A DNA stretch of 64,000 nucleotides from Planctomycetota bacterium. GTDB taxonomy: Bacteria; Planctomycetota; Phycisphaerae; Phycisphaerales; UBA5793. The position numbers and the translations under genes were made by a program. Shown here one piece after another: positions 36,720-54,070 of this stretch. Each line of letters opens with the position of its first letter. Position 1 is the stretch's first letter. The stretch lies in assembly GCA_963205185.1 (NCBI GenBank), contig CAUJHZ010000025.1:1-64000 (forward strand). Direction: 5' to 3'. Below the pieces are notes generated by a model that did not search any database, was not told where the DNA came from, and saw nothing but the letters and a program-made list of their open reading frames with translations.

Positions 36720-39326
36720 ATGAACACCATGACTCGACTGCTGCTTGCACTCACCGTTGCCCTGCTCGCCCTGGCCCCCGCACGCGGCCAGCAGGAAGCG
36801 GAGACTGCGCAAGACGCTCCAACGCCCGTCAGCAGGGTCGATGAACTGCTGGCTCGGCGTCTCGTGCAGCACTCCGCCCGCTTTGCCCGCCCCGGACCCG
36901 AGGCCGACCCCCTCGCCGGATACCGCGCCGCGGTGGGAATGTTGAAATGGGCCGCCAGACTCTCGCCCGACGACGTTGAGATCTACCGGCGGCTGGAGGC
37001 GGCGGGGTCGATCCTGGGATCGGAAGATGAAACGCTCATTGACGCCGAGCGGAATCTGCTTCGCCTCGATCCCGACAACGCCATCGCGCAGCTGCGCGTG
37101 ATCAACCGCGGCATCGACGCCCGGCAGAGCGTGGGTGAGCGGCTGGCGCTTTGCGAGCGGCTGCTGCGTTCGCAAGCTGGCAGCCGGCTGGCTCCCGAGG
37201 TGCTCAGCCAGATCGCGTATCGCGCGGCAACACTGGCTCAGGAGCAGGGCCGGGCGAGCGTTGCGGCGTCATACCTCGAAGAAGCGTTGAAACTCAATCC
37301 GGCGAATCTCGATGCGGCCGCGCTCAACGCGCTGGAAATCGACCGGCAGACCGCCAAGCCGGAACTGCTGGTGCGCGCGATGGTGCAGCTGGTCAAGGCC
37401 GACCCGACCAACGAAGCGGCGCTGAACGATCTCGTGGCCGCCGTACAGGAAGCCGGGTGCGCCAGCGCCGCCGCCGATCTGATCGAAGCAATGAGCGCGC
37501 AGGCGGCGCGGAGCGGCGCGAGCCTTCCCGATGACCTCTTCGCCGACTACGCCTACCTGCGGGCGGCCGACAGCGGCCCGAGGGAAGGACTCGACCTCAT
37601 TCAGGGGCGGCAGGAGTCATTCGACCGCTTCGAGCGCCAGCGCCTTCAGTTGCAATGGATTCGCGAGCGCCAGGCCGAAGCGCAGAAGGCGGCCGAAGCA
37701 CATCTTCCGGCGCCCCCGGCTGGTGAACTGCCGTCGTACGACGACGTCTCTGTCGAACTCTCCGTTCATCTGCAGATCACGCGGGTGCTGCTGGCGCTCG
37801 CGGCGGATTCGGCGGAGGAGATCGATCGCGGCATGGAATCGCTCGAGCGGTTGTGGGCCGGGCAACTTGAGGAACTGCGCAGCACCGACCGGTCGAGTCT
37901 GCCTGCGTCGGCGGTCGCTGCGCTCGAGGCAGATGAGCGGCGCATCATCGCCGATCGCGCCTGGACGCGGCTCTGGGTCAACAGGCGCGTCGATGAGGCC
38001 GCGGCGGATATCGATCTGCTCGACCGCAGCGGCAAGCACGACCAGAATGAGCTTCAGCGGCTGCGGGCGTGGCTGAGCCTTCGCCGCGGCGATGCGGCTG
38101 CAGCGATCGCGGGCCTTGAGTCATTGCCCTCGGTGGACCCGCTCAGCGATCTGGGCATGGCGCTGGCGCAGCTTCAACTCGGCCGCACCGCTGACGCCAC
38201 GCGACTGCTCGGGCAGATCTACCAGAACCAGCCCGGCAAGCTGATCGGGGTGATGAGCAAGTGGACGTATGAAGACCTGACCGACAATCCCATGCCGCTG
38301 CCGCGCGAGGCGCGCGCGGTGCAGAGAGAACTCGATCGCTTCCCGCGGATGCTCGCCGACCTGCTTCTTCGGCCTCAGCGGCACTTTTCGCTGTCGATCA
38401 ACCCGCGTCAGAGCCAGGTCAGCCCTCTCGACCCGATGACGTTTGACCTGGTCTTGCGCAACGACTCTCCGTGGCCGGTCGCGATCGGCCCGGAGACGAT
38501 TTTGCCCAGCCGCGCGGCGTTGTTTCCCATCTTTCAGGTCGTGGGCAAGACCGTCCAGACCGGCACGCCTCCCCTGGCGCTCGATCTCCAGCACCGGCTG
38601 ATGCTCGGACCTTCTCAATCGTTGACGGTCCCCGTCGCCATCGACTACACGCTTTTCGGGCTGATCATTCCCAACCTCGCGGTGCGGCCGATGACGGTTG
38701 AGATTCAGGCGAAACTGGACTACGAAGTCGGACCCAGCGGGAAGTTTCAGGAAACGCCGCACAGCCTGGTCCGTCAGTCGCCGCCGATTCACGTTTCGCC
38801 GTGGCCGGGGGTGCTCGACGAACCGCCGCCGGACTTCGCCGGATCGCTGCCCGGCGAGTCGCCGCAGAGCACGATCGAAGCGATCACTCGTGTTTCCGCC
38901 GCGCAGCATGCACGCCTGACGCGCATGATCAATCCGAGCGAGCACGCTGACTTGCTTGCCGCGGCGGACGCAGGGATCCTGCGACTCGTGGAGATCTGGC
39001 CGGAACTGGACCGGGAGGCTGCGGCGTGGGCGGTGCTGACAGTGCCGTTCCAGACGGAGACGAGCAGAAACCGCATCGAGTCGCTGGACCAGTTCGAGGC
39101 TGCCGCGCGTCGTTCGACGGATCCACTCGTGCAGATGTCGTGGATCGCCTCCCGGGCGAACTCACCCACCGACGTGGTGCTCGAAGGAGCACTGCGGAGC
39201 GACGATCCGGCCCTGCGGGCCATCGCCGAAGACGCCCTTATCTTCATCGAAGGGCTCGAGTCCAACCCGCCGTCCGAGGGAGCGACTCCGAGCGAAGCGC
39301 CGATCGCGGTCCCTCCCGAGAAGTGA
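36720..39326 (+). CDS. Large exported TPR-type hypothetical protein
   Basis: 868 residues. The signal peptide is MTRLLLALTVALLALAPARG. The N-terminal half is helical TPR repeats (LLRLDPDNAIAQLRVINRGI, ALKLNPANLDAAALNALEID, and MVQLVKADPTNEAALNDLVA). The C-terminal part has beta-rich domains (SPLDPMTFDLVLRNDSPWPV). The layout resembles planctomycete TPR proteins with a C-terminal sandwich domain. Function is unknown. It may act at the cell surface or in the periplasm. It is divergent from the HEAT-like gene. Confidence 0.65.
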   Translation: MNTMTRLLLALTVALLALAPARGQQEAETAQDAPTPVSRVDELLARRLVQHSARFARPGPEADPLAGYRAAVGMLKWAARLSPDDVEIYRRLEAAGSILGSEDETLIDAERNLLRLDPDNAIAQLRVINRGIDARQSVGERLALCERLLRSQAGSRLAPEVLSQIAYRAATLAQEQGRASVAASYLEEALKLNPANLDAAALNALEIDRQTAKPELLVRAMVQLVKADPTNEAALNDLVAAVQEAGCASAAADLIEAMSAQAARSGASLPDDLFADYAYLRAADSGPREGLDLIQGRQESFDRFERQRLQLQWIRERQAEAQKAAEAHLPAPPAGELPSYDDVSVELSVHLQITRVLLALAADSAEEIDRGMESLERLWAGQLEELRSTDRSSLPASAVAALEADERRIIADRAWTRLWVNRRVDEAAADIDLLDRSGKHDQNELQRLRAWLSLRRGDAAAAIAGLESLPSVDPLSDLGMALAQLQLGRTADATRLLGQIYQNQPGKLIGVMSKWTYEDLTDNPMPLPREARAVQRELDRFPRMLADLLLRPQRHFSLSINPRQSQVSPLDPMTFDLVLRNDSPWPVAIGPETILPSRAALFPIFQVVGKTVQTGTPPLALDLQHRLMLGPSQSLTVPVAIDYTLFGLIIPNLAVRPMTVEIQAKLDYEVGPSGKFQETPHSLVRQSPPIHVSPWPGVLDEPPPDFAGSLPGESPQSTIEAITRVSAAQHARLTRMINPSEHADLLAAADAGILRLVEIWPELDREAAAWAVLTVPFQTETSRNRIESLDQFEAAARRSTDPLVQMSWIASRANSPTDVVLEGALRSDDPALRAIAEDALIFIEGLESNPPSEGATPSEAPIAVPPEK

Positions 39327-40004: not shown

Positions 40005-43000
40005 GTGGCGAGCGCTTTGAGTACCGCAATCCTCGACGCCAATCTCGCCGCGCTCGCCGGCCACAATCCACGGCTCGTGCAGCGGATCCGAGCCGCGCAG
40101 CCATCTCCGGACTGCGCGTTCGCACCGACGCCCCAGGATGTTCCCGCCCTTTCGCTGGGCGGATCACAATTGTGCAGCCGCCACCGGCCCCTCGATGAGG
40201 CCGGCCGCTTCGCGGCGTCGATCGACATCGTGGAGCATGCGGCCGTCGTGGTGCTGGGGTTCGGAGCAGGGTATCACGTGCAGCGCCTGGCCGAGCGGCT
40301 GCGCAAGACGGGGCTGATCATTGTCTACGAGCCCGACGTGGCGATGTTGCGCGCGGTGTTCGAGCGGGTGGACCACTCGGCATGGATCAGCGCGACGAAC
40401 CTGGTCATCGCCGATGAGGCTGAAGACCGCGCTTCGCTGGCGTCGCAACTCGCGGGCGCCGAAGGAATCGTGGCGCAAGGCGCCACGATCGAATCGCACC
40501 TGCCCAGCCGCACGCGCCTGGGCGACGGCGCCGGCCGCTTCGGCAAGATGCTCGCCGATCTGGTCTCAAACATCCGCACGACGATGCTGACGACGCTGGT
40601 GCACTCATCCACCACCTGCCGCAACCTGAGCCTGAATCTTGACCACTATGGCGCCGGCGAAGGGATCGCGCCTCTGCAGGGCATCGCCGCCGGACGTACG
40701 GCGCTGCTCATCGCCGCGGGCCCGAGCCTGTCGCGACACTACGAGTTGCTCGCCGATCCATCTCTGCGCGAGCGCGTGGTGATCATTGCGGTGCAGACGT
40801 GCCTGAGACCGCTGCTGCGGCGCGGCATCCGGCCGCACTTCGTGACGGCGCTGGACTACCACGAAATCAGCCGGCACTTCTACGACGGTCTCGATCCGCA
40901 CGAACTGCGCGACATCACGCTGGTGTGCGAGCCGAAGGTGAATCGGATCGTGATCGAGTCATATCCGGGGCCGATCCGCTGCGTGGCCAACGGCTTTCTC
41001 GATCGGCTGCTCGGCCCGCTGGCGCGCGACATGGGCGCGGTGCCGGCGGGTTCAACCGTGGCTCATCTCAGCTTCTACCTCGCTCAGTACCTCGGCTGCG
41101 ATCCGATCGCACTCGTCGGCCAGGACCTCGGCTTCACCGACAATCTCTACTATGGCCCGGGCGCTGCCATCCACGACCAGTGGGCGCCTGAACTCAATGC
41201 ATTCAACACGATCGACATGATGGAATGGGCCCGCGTGGCCCGCATGAAGCGCAACCTGCGCCAGGCGCGGAGCCAGTCGGGCGGGTCGATGCTCATCGAC
41301 GAACAGATGAGCACGTACCTGACGCAGTTCGAGCGCGACTTCTCCAACGCCCCGCAGACGATCATTGATGCGCAAGGCGGCGGCGCGGCCAAGCAGCACA
41401 CCGTCGTGCGCCCGCTCGAGCAGGTCCTTGCCGAGGCCGGCTCGACCCCGCTGCCCGACTTTGCCGCCGAGCGCCGGCCGCTGAACCTCAGACGCCTCGG
41501 CGAGATCAGCCGGCGGATCCAGTCGGTCCGCGGCGACGTGCAGCAGCTCGAGCGCATCAGCCGCGACACCGGCGAGGTGCTTGGCAAGATGATCGAGCGG
41601 CAGCGCGATGCGGCGGCGATGAAACGACTCTTCGAGAAAGTCCGCGACAATCAGCGGCGGGTGGATCGCCTCGAACGCACACACGACCTCGTCAACAACC
41701 TCAACCAGCTCGGCGTGTTCAAGCGGCTCAGGGCCGACCGCCGGCTCGAACTGACCGAGGGCCTCGAACCTCTCGAACGGCAGAAGGCCCAGCTCGAACG
41801 CGATCAAACCAATGTGCGCTGGCTCGCCGACGCGTGCGCAGAGACGCGGCACATTCTCGATGATGCGCTTCGAGTCCTGCGCGGCGAATCGGTGAGCACG
41901 CGCATCGGCCAGGGCTATGAAGGAGAGGAACGCGGCGGTGAAGATGTGGAATCGCACCGGCCGCGCCGCATTGCCGCGATGATCGCCGTGGACCCCGAGC
42001 GCGATGGCCTGCTCCGCGAGCGCTCGCTCGCCGACGCGGGAGGCGGCTGTTCGCTGCTCCAGCGCACGCTCGAGCGGCTGGGCCGGTGCCGGCGCATTGA
42101 GTCGATCGTGCTGCTCGTGCCGCGCGGCTTGGCCGTTGGTGAGCTGATCGATGAACAGCTGATCGACCGCCCGGTCGCCGTGCGGGAGATCGACGGACCA
42201 ATCTTCGATGAGGCACATGCAGCCGTAGCCGCGGCGCGGCAGTGGAGCGACTGGTGCTGGCGCGGCGGCATCGGCGGGATGACGATCTTCGATGAGATCA
42301 TCACGCCAACGCACATGGCGGCGGCGATGACGGAACTTCAACTCGACGCGGCTGTCATCGTCGGCCCGGACTGGCCGCTGCTGGACTGGTCGGAATCGAC
42401 CGGCTGCGATGCACTCATCGCGCGCTACCTCGAACATCCCGAGAGTCATCGCATCGTGTTCACGCAGGCGCCGCCGGGTCTGTGCGGCATACTGATCGAA
42501 GCATCCCTCATGCGCGAGATGGCCCAGCGCGTGCGGCAGTTCACGCTCGGCTCGATGCTCTCGTACATTCCCAGCCTGCCGCAACTCGACCCGACGAGCA
42601 AAGATGCGTGCGTGAAACTCCCGGCGGAGATCCGCAACCATGCGGGTCGGTACATCGGCGGGCAGCGGGTCGCGGCACTTGCCGGTGCGATCGGCCCGCA
42701 GACTTGCGGCGAGGATCTGCTCGCTGCGATCACCGCGACGCCGCGCGAGGTCGATGCATGGCCTCAGCAGATCGAGATCGAACTCACAACGCGGCGCCCG
42801 ACGCAGCCGCGCTGGATGGCTGACGCCGCCGCGCCAATCGACGCTGAGATCGAAATGGTCGAACGGGTCTTGCGGGGGGCGTCGGCGCGCGACGATCTGG
42901 CCGTGACCTTCGGCGGCCGGGGCGACCCGCTGCTGCATCCGCAGTGCCGCGAGATCGTCGAGTTGTGCCGCGACCTGGGCTGCCGCGGGATTCATATCCG

Positions 43001-43574
43001 CACGGATCTGCCTGATTCGTTTGATGCGCTGCAACTGCTCGACTGGCCTGTCGAAGTCCTCAGCATCGAACTGCAGGCGGAAACTGCGGCGACGTACGAA
43101 GCCGTCATGGGCGTCAATCGCTTTGATGATCTGCGCCGACGCGTGGATGCGCTGATCAACGCGCGCAGCGCTCGCACGGGAAGCCCGAACCGGCTCGCCC
43201 TGCCGTGGATCGTGCCGCGCATGGCCCGCTGCCGCGCGACGCTGGATGAGATGCGCAACTTCTACGACCGCTGGCTGCACTACGCGGGCGCTGCGATGAT
43301 CGACCCATGGCCGGGCGAAGACGACGCGATCGCCCTCGATCCGCCATCGGCCGCCCTCGATGAAATCAACCGGCGAACTCTGCAGGTGCGCGCGGATGCA
43401 ACGGCCTTCGCCGGACCCAGCGCGTGGCGCGGGCCTGCAGGCGAGGACGTCATCGATCTCACGGGACAATCACTCGCCGCGGCATGGTCGCAACTCCAGT
43501 CGCGCGTGCGCTGGCATTCGGACCACGATGAAGCCGATGCGCCGGCACTGATCCTCGAGTTCGGCGCTGCGTGA
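40005..43574 (+). CDS. Maf/DUF115 glycosyltransferase fused to nucleotidyltransferase-like and radical-SAM-like domains
   Basis: 1189 residues with GTG start (TTG at 40017 is an alternative). Residues 1-200 and 205-390 match Maf/DUF115: VVVLGFGAGYHVQRLAERL, LLIAAGPSLSRHYELLADP, LSFYLAQYLGCDPIALVGQD. Maf proteins transfer nonulosonic acids to flagellin. Residues 495-630 are coiled coil. Residues 655-880 resemble a nucleotidyltransferase fold (RSLADAGGGCSLLQRTLERL, VGPDWPLLDWSES). Residues 960-1105 resemble a radical SAM barrel (GGRGDPLLHPQCREIV, SIELQAETAATYEAVMG) but no CxxxCxxC is seen. The stop overlaps neuA as TGATG. Function beyond domain 1 is inference. Confidence 0.75.
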   Translation: MASALSTAILDANLAALAGHNPRLVQRIRAAQPSPDCAFAPTPQDVPALSLGGSQLCSRHRPLDEAGRFAASIDIVEHAAVVVLGFGAGYHVQRLAERLRKTGLIIVYEPDVAMLRAVFERVDHSAWISATNLVIADEAEDRASLASQLAGAEGIVAQGATIESHLPSRTRLGDGAGRFGKMLADLVSNIRTTMLTTLVHSSTTCRNLSLNLDHYGAGEGIAPLQGIAAGRTALLIAAGPSLSRHYELLADPSLRERVVIIAVQTCLRPLLRRGIRPHFVTALDYHEISRHFYDGLDPHELRDITLVCEPKVNRIVIESYPGPIRCVANGFLDRLLGPLARDMGAVPAGSTVAHLSFYLAQYLGCDPIALVGQDLGFTDNLYYGPGAAIHDQWAPELNAFNTIDMMEWARVARMKRNLRQARSQSGGSMLIDEQMSTYLTQFERDFSNAPQTIIDAQGGGAAKQHTVVRPLEQVLAEAGSTPLPDFAAERRPLNLRRLGEISRRIQSVRGDVQQLERISRDTGEVLGKMIERQRDAAAMKRLFEKVRDNQRRVDRLERTHDLVNNLNQLGVFKRLRADRRLELTEGLEPLERQKAQLERDQTNVRWLADACAETRHILDDALRVLRGESVSTRIGQGYEGEERGGEDVESHRPRRIAAMIAVDPERDGLLRERSLADAGGGCSLLQRTLERLGRCRRIESIVLLVPRGLAVGELIDEQLIDRPVAVREIDGPIFDEAHAAVAAARQWSDWCWRGGIGGMTIFDEIITPTHMAAAMTELQLDAAVIVGPDWPLLDWSESTGCDALIARYLEHPESHRIVFTQAPPGLCGILIEASLMREMAQRVRQFTLGSMLSYIPSLPQLDPTSKDACVKLPAEIRNHAGRYIGGQRVAALAGAIGPQTCGEDLLAAITATPREVDAWPQQIEIELTTRRPTQPRWMADAAAPIDAEIEMVERVLRGASARDDLAVTFGGRGDPLLHPQCREIVELCRDLGCRGIHIRTDLPDSFDALQLLDWPVEVLSIELQAETAATYEAVMGVNRFDDLRRRVDALINARSARTGSPNRLALPWIVPRMARCRATLDEMRNFYDRWLHYAGAAMIDPWPGEDDAIALDPPSAALDEINRRTLQVRADATAFAGPSAWRGPAGEDVIDLTGQSLAAAWSQLQSRVRWHSDHDEADAPALILEFGAA

Positions 43575-44338
43575 TGGGAGCGGGCCCCGAGATGACTGCT
43601 GCAAAGGGATTGCCGCGCGAAACAGCCACCGCCGTCATCCTCGGCCGAGCCGGCAGCAAGGGTTTGCCGGGCAAGAACGCGATGCTGCTCGCCGGCCGGC
43701 CGATGGTGCAGCATTCCATCAAGCATGCGCGAAGCGCGGCGATGGTCGGCCGCATTCTCGTCTCGACGGACTGCCCGCAGGTTGCCGCGGCGGCGCGAAG
43801 CGAAGCCGTGGAGTTGATCGACCGCCCCACCGATCTCGCAGGCGACCAGGCGACGGTGGACGCGGCGGCTCGTCACGCCCTGCTCGACGACGAGGCGCCA
43901 ATCGCGGTGATTCTTTATGCAAACGTGCCGATTCGGCCGGCGGGGCTGATCGACCGGGCCGTGTCGCTGCTCATCGAAACCGGCGCGGATTCGGTGCAGA
44001 GTTATGCGCCCGTCGGCAAGCACCACCCCTACTGGGAAGTGAAGCTCGACGCGGCGGGTCGCGTGTCGGCGTATGTGGAGAACACGGTCTACCGCCGCCA
44101 GGATCTGCCGCCGCTGTTCGTGCCTGATGGCGGCGTGATCGCCGTGCGACGGGCGAGTCTGTACGAGGTCATCGAAGGTCAGCCGCATTCGTTTCTCGGC
44201 CGCGACCGGCGCGGCATCGAGACCGCCGCGGGCGCGGTGATCGACATCGATGATCGGATGGACTTCCTGCTGGCCGAACTCATCCTGAACGAGAGTGCCG
44301 ATTGCCGCACCGAGGCTGCCAGCCATGCGCTTCGGTGA
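43574..44338 (+). CDS. neuA: CMP-nonulosonic acid synthetase (NeuA-like)
   Basis: 254 residues from the ATG at 43574 (an upstream GTG at 43571 is also possible). The nucleotide-binding loop is VILGRAGSKGLPGKN near residues 22-36. Further features are ILVSTDCPQVA, the acceptor segment RPTDLAGDQATVD and Mg-binding VIDIDDRMD. It activates the nine-carbon acid as CMP-sugar for transfer, here probably by the adjacent Maf-type fusion. It overlaps neuB by 14 bases. Neu5Ac, legionaminate or pseudaminate cannot be distinguished from this alone. Confidence 0.88.
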   Translation: MGAGPEMTAAKGLPRETATAVILGRAGSKGLPGKNAMLLAGRPMVQHSIKHARSAAMVGRILVSTDCPQVAAAARSEAVELIDRPTDLAGDQATVDAAARHALLDDEAPIAVILYANVPIRPAGLIDRAVSLLIETGADSVQSYAPVGKHHPYWEVKLDAAGRVSAYVENTVYRRQDLPPLFVPDGGVIAVRRASLYEVIEGQPHSFLGRDRRGIETAAGAVIDIDDRMDFLLAELILNESADCRTEAASHALR

Positions 44339-45371
44339 ACGTTCGATCGGCCGCGATGTGCCCCCGTACGTCATCGCCGAGATCGGCGTGAATCACGACG
44401 GATCGACGCAGCGCGCCCTGCAACTGGTCGAGGCGGCCAAGCACGCCGGCGCCGATGCGGTGAAGGTGCAGTACTTCGAGGCGGAGCGTCTGATGAGCCG
44501 GGCGTGCCGGCTGGCGGCGTATCAGCAGGCCGCGGGCGAAACCGATCCGCTTGAGATGTTGCGCGGCCTGCAACTCAATCGCGAAGCCATGAGCGAGATC
44601 GTCCGCTATGCGCATTCGCTCGATCTGCACGCAATTGTCACGATCTTCAGTCTCGAAGACGCGCCGCTGGCGAGCGAAATCGATTGGGATGCGATCAAGA
44701 CGGCTTCGCCGGACATCGTCAATACTCCGCTGCTCGAAGCGCTGGCGGCCGCCGGAAAGCCGCTGATCGTCAGCACCGGGGCGGCGAACGCGGAGGAGAT
44801 CAGCACTGCCCTTGCGCGGTTCGGCCACATGGCGCTGCACTGCGTCAGCGCCTACCCCACGCCCGATGAGTGTGCTCAACTTGCGGGGATCGGCGCGCTT
44901 GCTGATCTCGCCGACGCCGCGTGCCCGCAACGCGATGCCGCCATCGGCTACTCCGATCACACGCCTTCGATCGACACCGGCGGTCTCGCCGTCGCGTGCG
45001 GCGCGTGCGTGCTGGAGAAGCACCTGACGTGGAGCCGCACGGCGCGCGGGCCGGATCACGCGGCGTCTCTCGATCCCGGTCAGTTCGCGCAGTACGTTCA
45101 ACTCGCCCGCCGGGCCCACGCGATGCTCGGGCCGCGCGGCATCGTTATTCAGGATATCGAAATGGATGTGCGCACCGTCAGCCGGCAGTCGATCACCACG
45201 ACGCGCGACCTGCGTACCGGCGCGGTGCTCACTCGCGATGATCTCACTGTCAAGCGACCCGGCTCCGGTCTGCCCCCCGCCATGCTTGCCGCGCTGCCCG
45301 GCCGCCGGCTGTCGCGCGACGTCGCTGCGGATACGCCGCTCACTGCCGCGGATCTCGAAGGGGGAGCGTGA
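44325..45371 (+). CDS. neuB: N-acetylneuraminate synthase family protein (NeuB-like)
   Basis: 348 residues from the ATG at 44325. The start of the TIM barrel is YVIAEIGVNHDGSTQRALQL, with ADAVKVQYFEAERLM and KPLIVSTGAANAEEI following. The C-terminal SAF antifreeze-like domain starts near 285 (RQSITTTRDLRTGAVLTRDD). It condenses phosphoenolpyruvate with a hexosamine to make a nonulosonic acid. It lies between neuA (14-base overlap) and neuC (shared A at TGATG) in one operon. The specific sugar is not determined. Confidence 0.9.
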   Translation: MRFGERSIGRDVPPYVIAEIGVNHDGSTQRALQLVEAAKHAGADAVKVQYFEAERLMSRACRLAAYQQAAGETDPLEMLRGLQLNREAMSEIVRYAHSLDLHAIVTIFSLEDAPLASEIDWDAIKTASPDIVNTPLLEALAAAGKPLIVSTGAANAEEISTALARFGHMALHCVSAYPTPDECAQLAGIGALADLADAACPQRDAAIGYSDHTPSIDTGGLAVACGACVLEKHLTWSRTARGPDHAASLDPGQFAQYVQLARRAHAMLGPRGIVIQDIEMDVRTVSRQSITTTRDLRTGAVLTRDDLTVKRPGSGLPPAMLAALPGRRLSRDVAADTPLTAADLEGGA

Positions 45372-46501
45372 TGGCTGGGTCGCAGATGCCCTGGAGAATC
45401 GCGGTCGTGACCGGCTGCCGGGCCGACTATGGCCTGCTGCGACCGGTCATGCGCGCCATCGCGGCGTCGCCGGCGCTTGATCTGCAGGTGATCGTCACCG
45501 GCACGCATCTGCTGGCGGATGCGAACACGCGCGATGAAGTGGCGGCTGAGTTCGAGATCGCCGCCGAGGTGGCCATGCAGCGGCCCGGTGAATGCGGGCG
45601 GCTAGCGGACGCCGTGGCTTTGGGTCGCGGCGTCACGGGCCTGGCTGAGGCCGTTGGGAATCTCAAGCCGGATGTCGTTCTCGTGCTCGGCGATCGCATT
45701 GAAGCGTTTGCCGCGGCGTCGGCGGCGAGTGTGGCCGGATTCCTGGTCGCGCACGTGCACGGCGGCGACCGGGCTGAGGGCGTGGCCGATGAGGCGATGC
45801 GGCACGCGATCACCAAGCTCGCGCACATTCACTTTCCGGCCACCGAGCAAAGTGCTGAACGCATCCGGAGAATGGGCGAGCGCGAAGATTCCATTCATGT
45901 CGTCGGCTCCCCCGCCATCGACGATCTCGCATCGTTCGAACCGTTGACAGACGACCAACTCCGCAAGCTCGGCATTGATCCCGCGCGCGACTTCGCCGTC
46001 GTGCTGCACCACCCGACAGGGCTCGACGATGCGGTCGAGTTCGAAACGATGTCGGCGATCCTTGCGGCGACGGATGCGGCGTTCGAGGGCAACATCCTCG
46101 TCGGCGCACCGAACCATGATCCGGGACGGGCGGCAGTGCTGCGCGCGATCGGGCAGCGGCGAATACTGCCTCATCTTCCCCGGCAGCGGTTCATCGGCCT
46201 GCTCCGGCGGGCGAGGGTGCTCGTCGGCGACTCATCGGCGGGTCTGATCGAAGCCGCGGCGCTTGGACTGCCGGTGGTCAACATCGGACCAAGACAGGCC
46301 GGGAGAGAACGCGGCGACAACGCGATCGACGTCCCCGCGCTCAGTGCGAACGCAGTCGGGCAGGCGATTGAGGAGGCTCGTCGTCTCAAGCCCGGCACAA
46401 GCCATCCCTACGGCCACGGCCGCGCGGGCCAACGCATCGCGGCGGTGCTGGTGCGTTTGCAAGAGTCGCCGCCTTCGATCCGCAAGTGCAACGCGTACTA
46501 A
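45371..46501 (+). CDS. neuC: UDP-GlcNAc 2-epimerase, hydrolysing (NeuC-like)
   Basis: 376 residues from the ATG at 45371 (GTG at 45368 is the alternative). The fold and motifs fit hydrolysing epimerases: IAVVTGCRADYGLLRPVMRA near the start, VLVLGDRIEAFAAASAAS, AHVHGGDRAEGVADEAMRHA, and the C-terminal VLVGDSSAGLIEAAALGLPV. It makes ManNAc or 6-deoxy-diacetyl-Alt/Man derivatives, the precursor for NeuB. With neuB and neuA it completes a route from UDP-GlcNAc to a CMP-nonulosonate. The enzyme subtype (NeuC versus LegG) is not decided. Confidence 0.88.
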   Translation: MAGSQMPWRIAVVTGCRADYGLLRPVMRAIAASPALDLQVIVTGTHLLADANTRDEVAAEFEIAAEVAMQRPGECGRLADAVALGRGVTGLAEAVGNLKPDVVLVLGDRIEAFAAASAASVAGFLVAHVHGGDRAEGVADEAMRHAITKLAHIHFPATEQSAERIRRMGEREDSIHVVGSPAIDDLASFEPLTDDQLRKLGIDPARDFAVVLHHPTGLDDAVEFETMSAILAATDAAFEGNILVGAPNHDPGRAAVLRAIGQRRILPHLPRQRFIGLLRRARVLVGDSSAGLIEAAALGLPVVNIGPRQAGRERGDNAIDVPALSANAVGQAIEEARRLKPGTSHPYGHGRAGQRIAAVLVRLQESPPSIRKCNAY

Positions 46502-52905: not shown

Positions 52906-53370
52906 ATGGCTGCCGCATCAACGGCCACCAGGCCGATTTCGTGCGTACTCGTCGCTGACCAGCAGGTCGGCCGGCTTTTCGCATCGGGCCGCCGCAATGG
53001 CCGGCTGCACCTGGAGGAACTCGCAGCCCATCCGAATAAACTCAGGCCGCACGACCGCGGCGGTAAACCGCCCGCCACGGGCCCACAGCGGGCGCCTTAC
53101 GCCGAGCCGGATCGTGACCACGACGTAATGCGCGATCAGTTCGCCGCCGACCTGATCGCATGGCTGCAGAACGAATTGCGTCTGCGCCCGACGGACGGCA
53201 CGCTCGTGCTCTTTGCCCCGCCTGAATTCCTCGGCGCGCTGCGCAGCGCCATGTCCTCGAGGCCCCTGCCGGCGCGCATCACCGATCAACCGCTCGATCT
53301 CGCCTGGCTGTCCACGAGCGAACTCGAGCGGCATCCGAGCGTCATCCGCGAGCTTTCTCCGCCTGAGTAG
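52906..53370 (+). CDS. Host attachment protein-like (AtsE-type)
   Basis: 154 residues from the ATG at 52906 (AAAGGGGAG ribosome site). The family pattern is visible: CVLVADQQVGRLFASGRRNG, then HLEELAAHPNKLRPHDRGGK, and near the end LVLFAPPEFLGALRSAMSSR with ELSPPE. Members are linked by name to plant attachment in rhizobia, but the biochemical role is unclear. It overlaps the convergent membrane gene by 29 bases. It starts after the terminator, so it has its own promoter. Confidence 0.75.
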   Translation: MAAASTATRPISCVLVADQQVGRLFASGRRNGRLHLEELAAHPNKLRPHDRGGKPPATGPQRAPYAEPDRDHDVMRDQFAADLIAWLQNELRLRPTDGTLVLFAPPEFLGALRSAMSSRPLPARITDQPLDLAWLSTSELERHPSVIRELSPPE

Positions 53371-54070
53371 TGCTGCCGCTCAGCAGCACCGGCGGCGCCA
53401 GGAGCAGCGCCAGAACCAGCATCTGCACGGCGAACATAATGAATACGCGCGCCGGCCACGGGCCCATGATGCTCGTGGGCGAATCGGCCGGGCCGATGTA
53501 GCCGTAGTTGAGGTCGAACATCCAGTCGATGGGAACGATGACAGTGCAGTACAGCGCCAGCAGCACCTGCGCGACCGCCCAGTCGCCGGCGCGCGGCACG
53601 AAGCCGCGCACGGCGACGAGATAGACCGCCGAGCCGACGATCTGCAGGTGTGTCAGCCAGAAGAGGTAGAACTCGATGCGATCCGGGCCGTGCGTGAGCG
53701 AGGGCCAGATGAAGCCGAGGATGCACAGGCCGATGCCCCAGAAGTAGACAATCGACCACACCCACCGGACTTCGCGCAGCAGCGACACGGCCGCGAGCAC
53801 GGCGACGATATCGCAGATGTTCAGCGGCAGACTGAGGCGCCACGCAAAGCGCGTTGGCCAGGCGTACCACATGGCCGCGACTACCTGGGTGAGCAGGGTA
53901 AAGACGGCCCAGGCGATGCGCAGGGCCCGCTCGGCCTCTGGACGTTTCCTGTACCACCTTCGGCCGATACAGCTGGCAGCAACCGCTGCAATCACGCAAA
54001 TCGAGACCGCAGCGAAGTGGATTTCCGAGCCGATTCTGAAGGTCTGGAATGTGATGGCGAACGCAGGCAT
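53342..54070 (-). CDS. TIGR02206 family integral membrane protein (YwaF-like)
   Basis: 242 residues with six or seven membrane helices. The conserved LPLNICDIVAVLAAVSLLRE and YFWGIGLCILGFIWPSLTHG are characteristic of the TIGR02206/YwaF family, whose function is unknown. The C-terminus is short. It converges on the host-attachment-like gene. Confidence 0.82.
   Translation of the reverse strand: MPAFAITFQTFRIGSEIHFAAVSICVIAAVAASCIGRRWYRKRPEAERALRIAWAVFTLLTQVVAAMWYAWPTRFAWRLSLPLNICDIVAVLAAVSLLREVRWVWSIVYFWGIGLCILGFIWPSLTHGPDRIEFYLFWLTHLQIVGSAVYLVAVRGFVPRAGDWAVAQVLLALYCTVIVPIDWMFDLNYGYIGPADSPTSIMGPWPARVFIMFAVQMLVLALLLAPPVLLSGSTTQAEKARG

Follow-up and report, generated by a model that had tools for sequence, protein, structure and literature searches.

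A planctomycete Maf-type flagellin glycosyltransferase fused to a predicted cytidylyltransferase-fold domain and a radical-SAM-type barrel without cluster cysteines

Maf proteins are usually considered to glycosylate flagellin on their own, in a one-protein transfer step. Three domains make up the solved Maf structure, for which no further C-terminal part is described (PMC11339370). The protein analysed here, from a planctomycete, is like Maf over residues 1-625 (Magnetospirillum Maf, PDB 5mu5; Aeromonas Maf1; FlagModPseD) and, like these proteins, is encoded with nonulosonate genes. However, an ordinary Maf stops after the helical domain, whereas the fusion adds about 560 residues. The added part has likenesses of its own. 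Radical-SAM/SPASM enzymes (DesII, SuiB, BlsE and the anaerobic sulfatase-maturating enzyme) have the same barrel as well as the SPASM cysteines that are found in relatives of the fusion encoded by split genes, but unlike these enzymes the added module has no CxxxCxxC. Cytidylyltransferases (NeuA/CTP_transf_3, IspD and the structure 6oew) have a fold in common with the second domain, with remote profile similarity to NeuA, and carry a RxGSKGxPxKN-type signature that is missing from it. A named precedent for a pseudo-SAM/SPASM protein exists in the NCBIfam family TIGR04347 of Halobacteria, which gave a weak match in 8/37 members of our module alignment (29 bits against a cut-off of 525 for L084) and for which we know of no link to Maf. 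A further related family is the orphan NCBIfam family TIGR04321 (spiro-SPASM), which is named after spirochaetes and not planctomycetes, its spirochaetal origin being read from the name alone; literature searches for spiro-SPASM or TIGR04321 found no paper, and a search for a link between Maf and SPASM or radical-SAM proteins found nothing relevant.

In the window (the whole stretch of 64,000 nucleotides that was analysed) the fusion is a single uninterrupted ORF of 1,189 aa with a GTG start, laid out as follows.

40005..43574, + strand: whole fused gene, without stops; orthologous single ORF in about 28 relatives
40005..40637, + strand: Maf N-terminal domain, residues 1-211; borderline Pfam Maf_flag10_N match, Foldseek match to 5mu5 over the Maf part
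40638..41141, + strand: Maf catalytic core PF01973, residues 212-379; over the Pfam cut-off, with invariant motifs
41487..41879, + strand: helical C-terminal region of Maf, residues 495-625; predicted as long helices when the full-length protein was modelled
41880..41960, + strand: linker, residues 626-652; low pLDDT, gene boundary in split relatives
41967..42740, + strand: cytidylyltransferase-fold domain without the catalytic signature, residues 655-912; Foldseek match to 6oew, hhalign match to the NeuA profile
42756..43319, + strand: radical-SAM-type barrel without CxxxCxxC, residues 918-1105; hhalign match, Foldseek matches to radical-SAM enzymes
43320..43526, + strand: SPASM remnant with its cysteines gone, residues 1106-1174; aligned to the intact SPASM of split relatives

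A minus-strand ORF of 805 aa (41052-43469) overlaps the fusion and was regarded as a by-product of high G+C.

The Maf core was matched by the Pfam model PF01973 (MptE-like) with an E value of 2.8e-32 and 112.3 bits against a cut-off of 34.6, and its GPSL (239-242) and GQDL (372-375) motifs are invariant in 26 fused relatives. The Maf_flag10_N match (E 5e-5) fell 0.2 bits short of its cut-off, and among the NCBIfam models both the PseD flagellin-modification model FlagModPseD (E 9e-12, 44 bits against 670) and TIGR04321 (residues 901-1096, E 1.3e-6) scored far under their curated cut-offs. The full-length structure model (pLDDT 88.1, pTM 0.82) had the Maf structure 5mu5 as its top Foldseek match (E 2.9e-18, 735 alignment columns), and the Maf part is accordingly modelled with the three-domain fold of 5mu5. 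The pTM of this model suggests a defined arrangement of the predicted module relative to Maf; pLDDT drops below 50 in the linker, at residues 636-650.

The C-terminal half was recognized through its relatives, by profile comparison and by its predicted structure. Pfam gave no match for domains 2 and 3 of the window protein, nor did the protein sequence match anything when searched directly against the PDB, and profile searches returned weak radical-SAM and IspD matches and nothing stronger. The first-pass annotation had proposed one polypeptide in which Maf is joined to a nucleotidyltransferase-like fold (655-880) and a radical-SAM-like barrel (960-1105), with structure prediction of the C-terminal part as a check. 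The AlphaFold2 model of residues 639-1189 (pLDDT 89.5, pTM 0.90) agreed with both folds, matching radical-SAM structures in Foldseek with a best E value of 8e-9 and a probability of 1.00 to many of them (including DesII, SuiB, BlsE and viperin) and the Leptospira cytidylyltransferase 6oew with an E value of 3.4e-5. In profile comparisons by hhalign, for which the cross-controls were null, the barrel matched canonical radical-SAM/SPASM proteins of the same phylum at a probability of 99.9 (E 2.5e-31), and the match between domain 2 and NeuA was weaker (probability 64, E 6e-5). When Pfam was run on the aligned relatives, Radical_SAM was found in 29/37 members and SPASM in 12/37. The radical-SAM partial TIM-barrel fold of the C-terminal barrel is thus confirmed at the level of structure prediction, and a cytidylyltransferase fold is predicted with confidence for domain 2. 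Two points go beyond the first-pass annotation, namely that domains 2 and 3 belong together as a TIGR04321-related unit that predates the fusion, and that a SPASM remnant makes up the C-terminal tail (about 1106-1174).

The same arrangement was searched for in 61 genomes of the order, with the genome of the window included, and 54/61 had a match to the window protein. The fused gene was present in about 29/61 genomes, all of them flagellin-bearing and distributed over the four families f1-f4; the copy in genome G047 is broken across contig ends. Four genomes of the same genus carry it as a single ORF with 64-88% identity. In 23/61 genomes (families f5 and f6) the Maf part (about 1-625) and the module (about 650 onwards) are two ORFs, which are adjacent in 22 of the 23 and apart in G010, so that a search for separate proteins with the same domains found the module as a gene of its own beside Maf in many relatives. 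The first gene of the split pairs ends near residue 625 and the second restarts near 650, which is the position of the linker. In a maximum likelihood tree of the C-terminal module (midpoint-rooted for drawing, with distant phylum members on their own side) every fused member of the order fell in one clade with 100/100 support and the split members fell outside. Our simplest reading of the tree and the gene order is that a pre-existing adjacent pair would have been fused once. An assembly error, one of the outcomes that would have undone the first-pass proposal, was rejected; across four families about 28 genomes carry the single ORF, with identity falling as low as about 34%, the fused clade has 100/100 support, and the chance of such an error is practically nil. 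Two of the split pairs are one substitution short of fusion, having Maf and module ORFs in the same frame with a lone in-frame stop between them, TGA in genome G029 (L010:1246-4917) and TAG in genome G018 (L019:1390-5016).

Outside the order, a search of the phylum with TIGR04321 retrieved eleven distant full-length modules, each with a cytidylyltransferase-like part and a barrel. A Maf adjoined the module or was in the same ORF in 8/11, and no Maf neighbour was found for the other three in the DNA fetched around them. TIGR04321 is homologous to these distant planctomycete modules over nearly its full length (positions 75-506 of the 510 in the model, E 2e-46) and to 35/37 members of the module alignment, although all scored below its cut-off of 250 bits (159 for the best distant relative and 27.4, for the C-terminal part only, for the window protein). 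Judged by these profile matches the C-terminal module is distantly related to this orphan family. One protein from elsewhere in the phylum, of 1,174 aa (L091:7604-11125, genome G234), is a separate fusion of Maf and module in which the SPASM domain and its cysteines are retained. A plasmid search for relatives returned just generic radical-SAM proteins, from Lawsonia and a single deltaproteobacterium.

The genes directly downstream of the fusion in the window are neuA, neuB and neuC, as had been noted in the first-pass annotation.

43571..44338, + strand: NeuA-type CMP-nonulosonate synthetase; overlaps the stop codon of the fusion; Pfam CTP_transf_3, E 8e-17
44295..45371, + strand: NeuB-type nonulosonate synthase; Pfam NeuB, E 1.3e-57, and SAF; under the NCBIfam equivalog cut-offs
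45368..46501, + strand: NeuC, UDP-GlcNAc 2-epimerase; TIGR03568, 316 bits against a cut-off of 235.9

Only NeuC passed the NCBIfam cut-offs, which NeuA and NeuB failed. In most members of the order and in some distant ones NeuA follows directly after the module, with gaps of -63 to 119 bases. Besides the fusion no PF01973 protein was found in the genome, and three flagellin-type genes are located on another contig. Maf and module were found in 52/52 flagellin-bearing genomes of the order compared with 2/9 flagellin-less ones (Fisher's exact test, p = 8e-8, a value overstated by shared ancestry, as 8/9 flagellin-less genomes belong to family f3), and 7/9 flagellin-less genomes were without both. 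In every flagellin-bearing genome of the order that was examined there is thus a second module beside Maf, fused or adjacent, with one exception. Modules with a divergent Maf part were seen in two genomes without detectable flagellin or NeuB, G012 (L048:4086-7298) and G024 (L047:5038-7542, where the Maf part is also partial), which suggests repurposing or decay.

The residues on which the chemistry of either parent enzyme depends were then compared. The CxxxCxxC motif was absent from the window protein and from every relative with the cytidylyltransferase-like domain, and was present in all of the matches listed that were barrel-only radical-SAM proteins. An active radical-SAM enzyme was therefore rejected, in line with the earlier remark that no cluster cysteines are visible. 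The GGE-type motif of the barrel reads GxGD(P/A) in the order and is G-G-E-P-like in several distant modules. Of 13 split proteins, 9, 12, 13, 13 and 13 have a cysteine at the five C-terminal SPASM columns, compared with only 0-4 of 22 fused proteins, and the cysteines are present in the distant phylum modules. They have been lost along the fused lineage, and in most split relatives they may yet bind a structural Fe-S cluster. Their near invariance in the 13 split proteins, their presence in distant modules and their retention in the independent fusion L091 would suit a module that is a redox or Fe-S sensor, whose SPASM cluster in split relatives regulates flagellin modification or transfers electrons in it and whose fused form has lost the cluster. 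Such a sensor is improbable in our estimation; there can be no canonical SAM radical chemistry where CxxxCxxC is missing, and the SPASM cysteines are missing from the whole fused clade and also from one split protein, L035. The loss of both sets of cysteines fits the proposal in the first-pass annotation that the barrel is a non-redox module. The module is a clear example of a pseudoenzyme derived from a radical-SAM/SPASM protein, with the radical-SAM cluster motif missing throughout and, in the fused clade, the auxiliary (SPASM) cluster cysteines gone as well.

For domain 2, none of the 55 modules compared has the NeuA-type RxGSKGxPxKN nucleotide-binding signature, and in several part of it is deleted. 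Among NeuA relatives, on the other hand, the strict signature was present in 43/49, with a near match in five of the other six, and the NeuA adjoining the fusion has RxGSKGLPxKN intact, in the window and in most relatives. With the signature missing here and intact next door, domain 2 is unlikely to be an ordinary CMP-sugar synthetase, and the earlier suggestion of activated-sugar handling is not supported as catalysis; the domain may merely bind CMP-sugar. The conserved positions of the domain (R745, W752-R-G-G755, D763-E764 and P824-G825) may belong to a binding site or to an active site that has changed. If the latter, the fusion would be bifunctional, with domain 2 either activating a second sugar as a nucleotidyltransferase or extending or modifying the glycan as a GT-A-like transferase. 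We regard this as unlikely, if less so than a sensor; the strong conservation of the polar and acidic residues R745, WRGG 752-755 and D763-E764 and the confidently predicted fold speak for it, but the phosphate-binding signature is gone from all 55 modules, an intact NeuA is encoded alongside, and D789 (in GPDWP), which is acidic in most members of the order, is not retained in several distant modules.

Catalytic and cluster residues have been lost progressively, which might also mean that the C-terminal half was joined to Maf by chance and persists in the fused clade as a decaying passenger with no function. It does evolve faster than Maf (dN/dS of 0.20 and 0.15 for the two C-terminal domains compared with 0.06 for the Maf core), and residues 1100-1189 are poorly conserved. 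However, values of 0.15-0.20 indicate that the cytidylyltransferase-fold domain and the barrel are both under purifying selection and therefore not passengers; full length is retained in all fused relatives of the four families and the model of 639-1189 is well ordered. The passenger explanation is accordingly very unlikely.

We favour, at somewhat better than even confidence, the interpretation that the fusion joins Maf to an accessory module derived from two enzymes that have degenerated; the module would be a substrate-handling partner without chemistry of its own. As judged from known pathways, NeuC, NeuB and NeuA would produce CMP-nonulosonate and Maf would transfer the nonulosonate to flagellin in the cytoplasm. 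A second activating enzyme would be unnecessary because a separate intact neuA adjoins the fusion, and the module, performing no reaction itself, would help Maf to bind flagellin and/or CMP-nonulosonate. Radical-SAM/SPASM enzymes commonly act on peptides (SuiB is one of the Foldseek matches), so that flagellin is favoured as the ligand of the barrel, which by analogy would bind the flagellin chain as those enzymes bind peptides. The cytidylyltransferase-fold domain would bind CMP-sugar or CMP, or else pack against Maf. Given the modules in the flagellin-less genomes G012 and G024 and the three distant modules without a Maf neighbour, the module may have other uses besides its partnership with Maf. 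We propose more tentatively, at somewhat less than even confidence, that the conserved pseudoenzyme pair could be an obligate partner of Maf in glycosylating flagellin throughout planctomycetes and, by homology, that spiro-SPASM could be the same in spirochaetes. If so, the fusion would give the orphan spiro-SPASM family its first function; the module is in any case a testable partner of Maf and offers a candidate function for an orphan protein family.

Two other genes in the window may be mentioned. Directly upstream of the fusion lies a gene for an 868-aa protein (36720-39326, + strand) with weak TPR-like matches alone. Within the genus its relatives likewise precede the fusion, as they do in G005, there at 24% identity, and the gene is possibly part of the same locus. 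At 53342-54070 (- strand) this bacterial contig encodes a protein with a match (E 3.4e-35) to the TMEM164 family, which is known mainly from animals.
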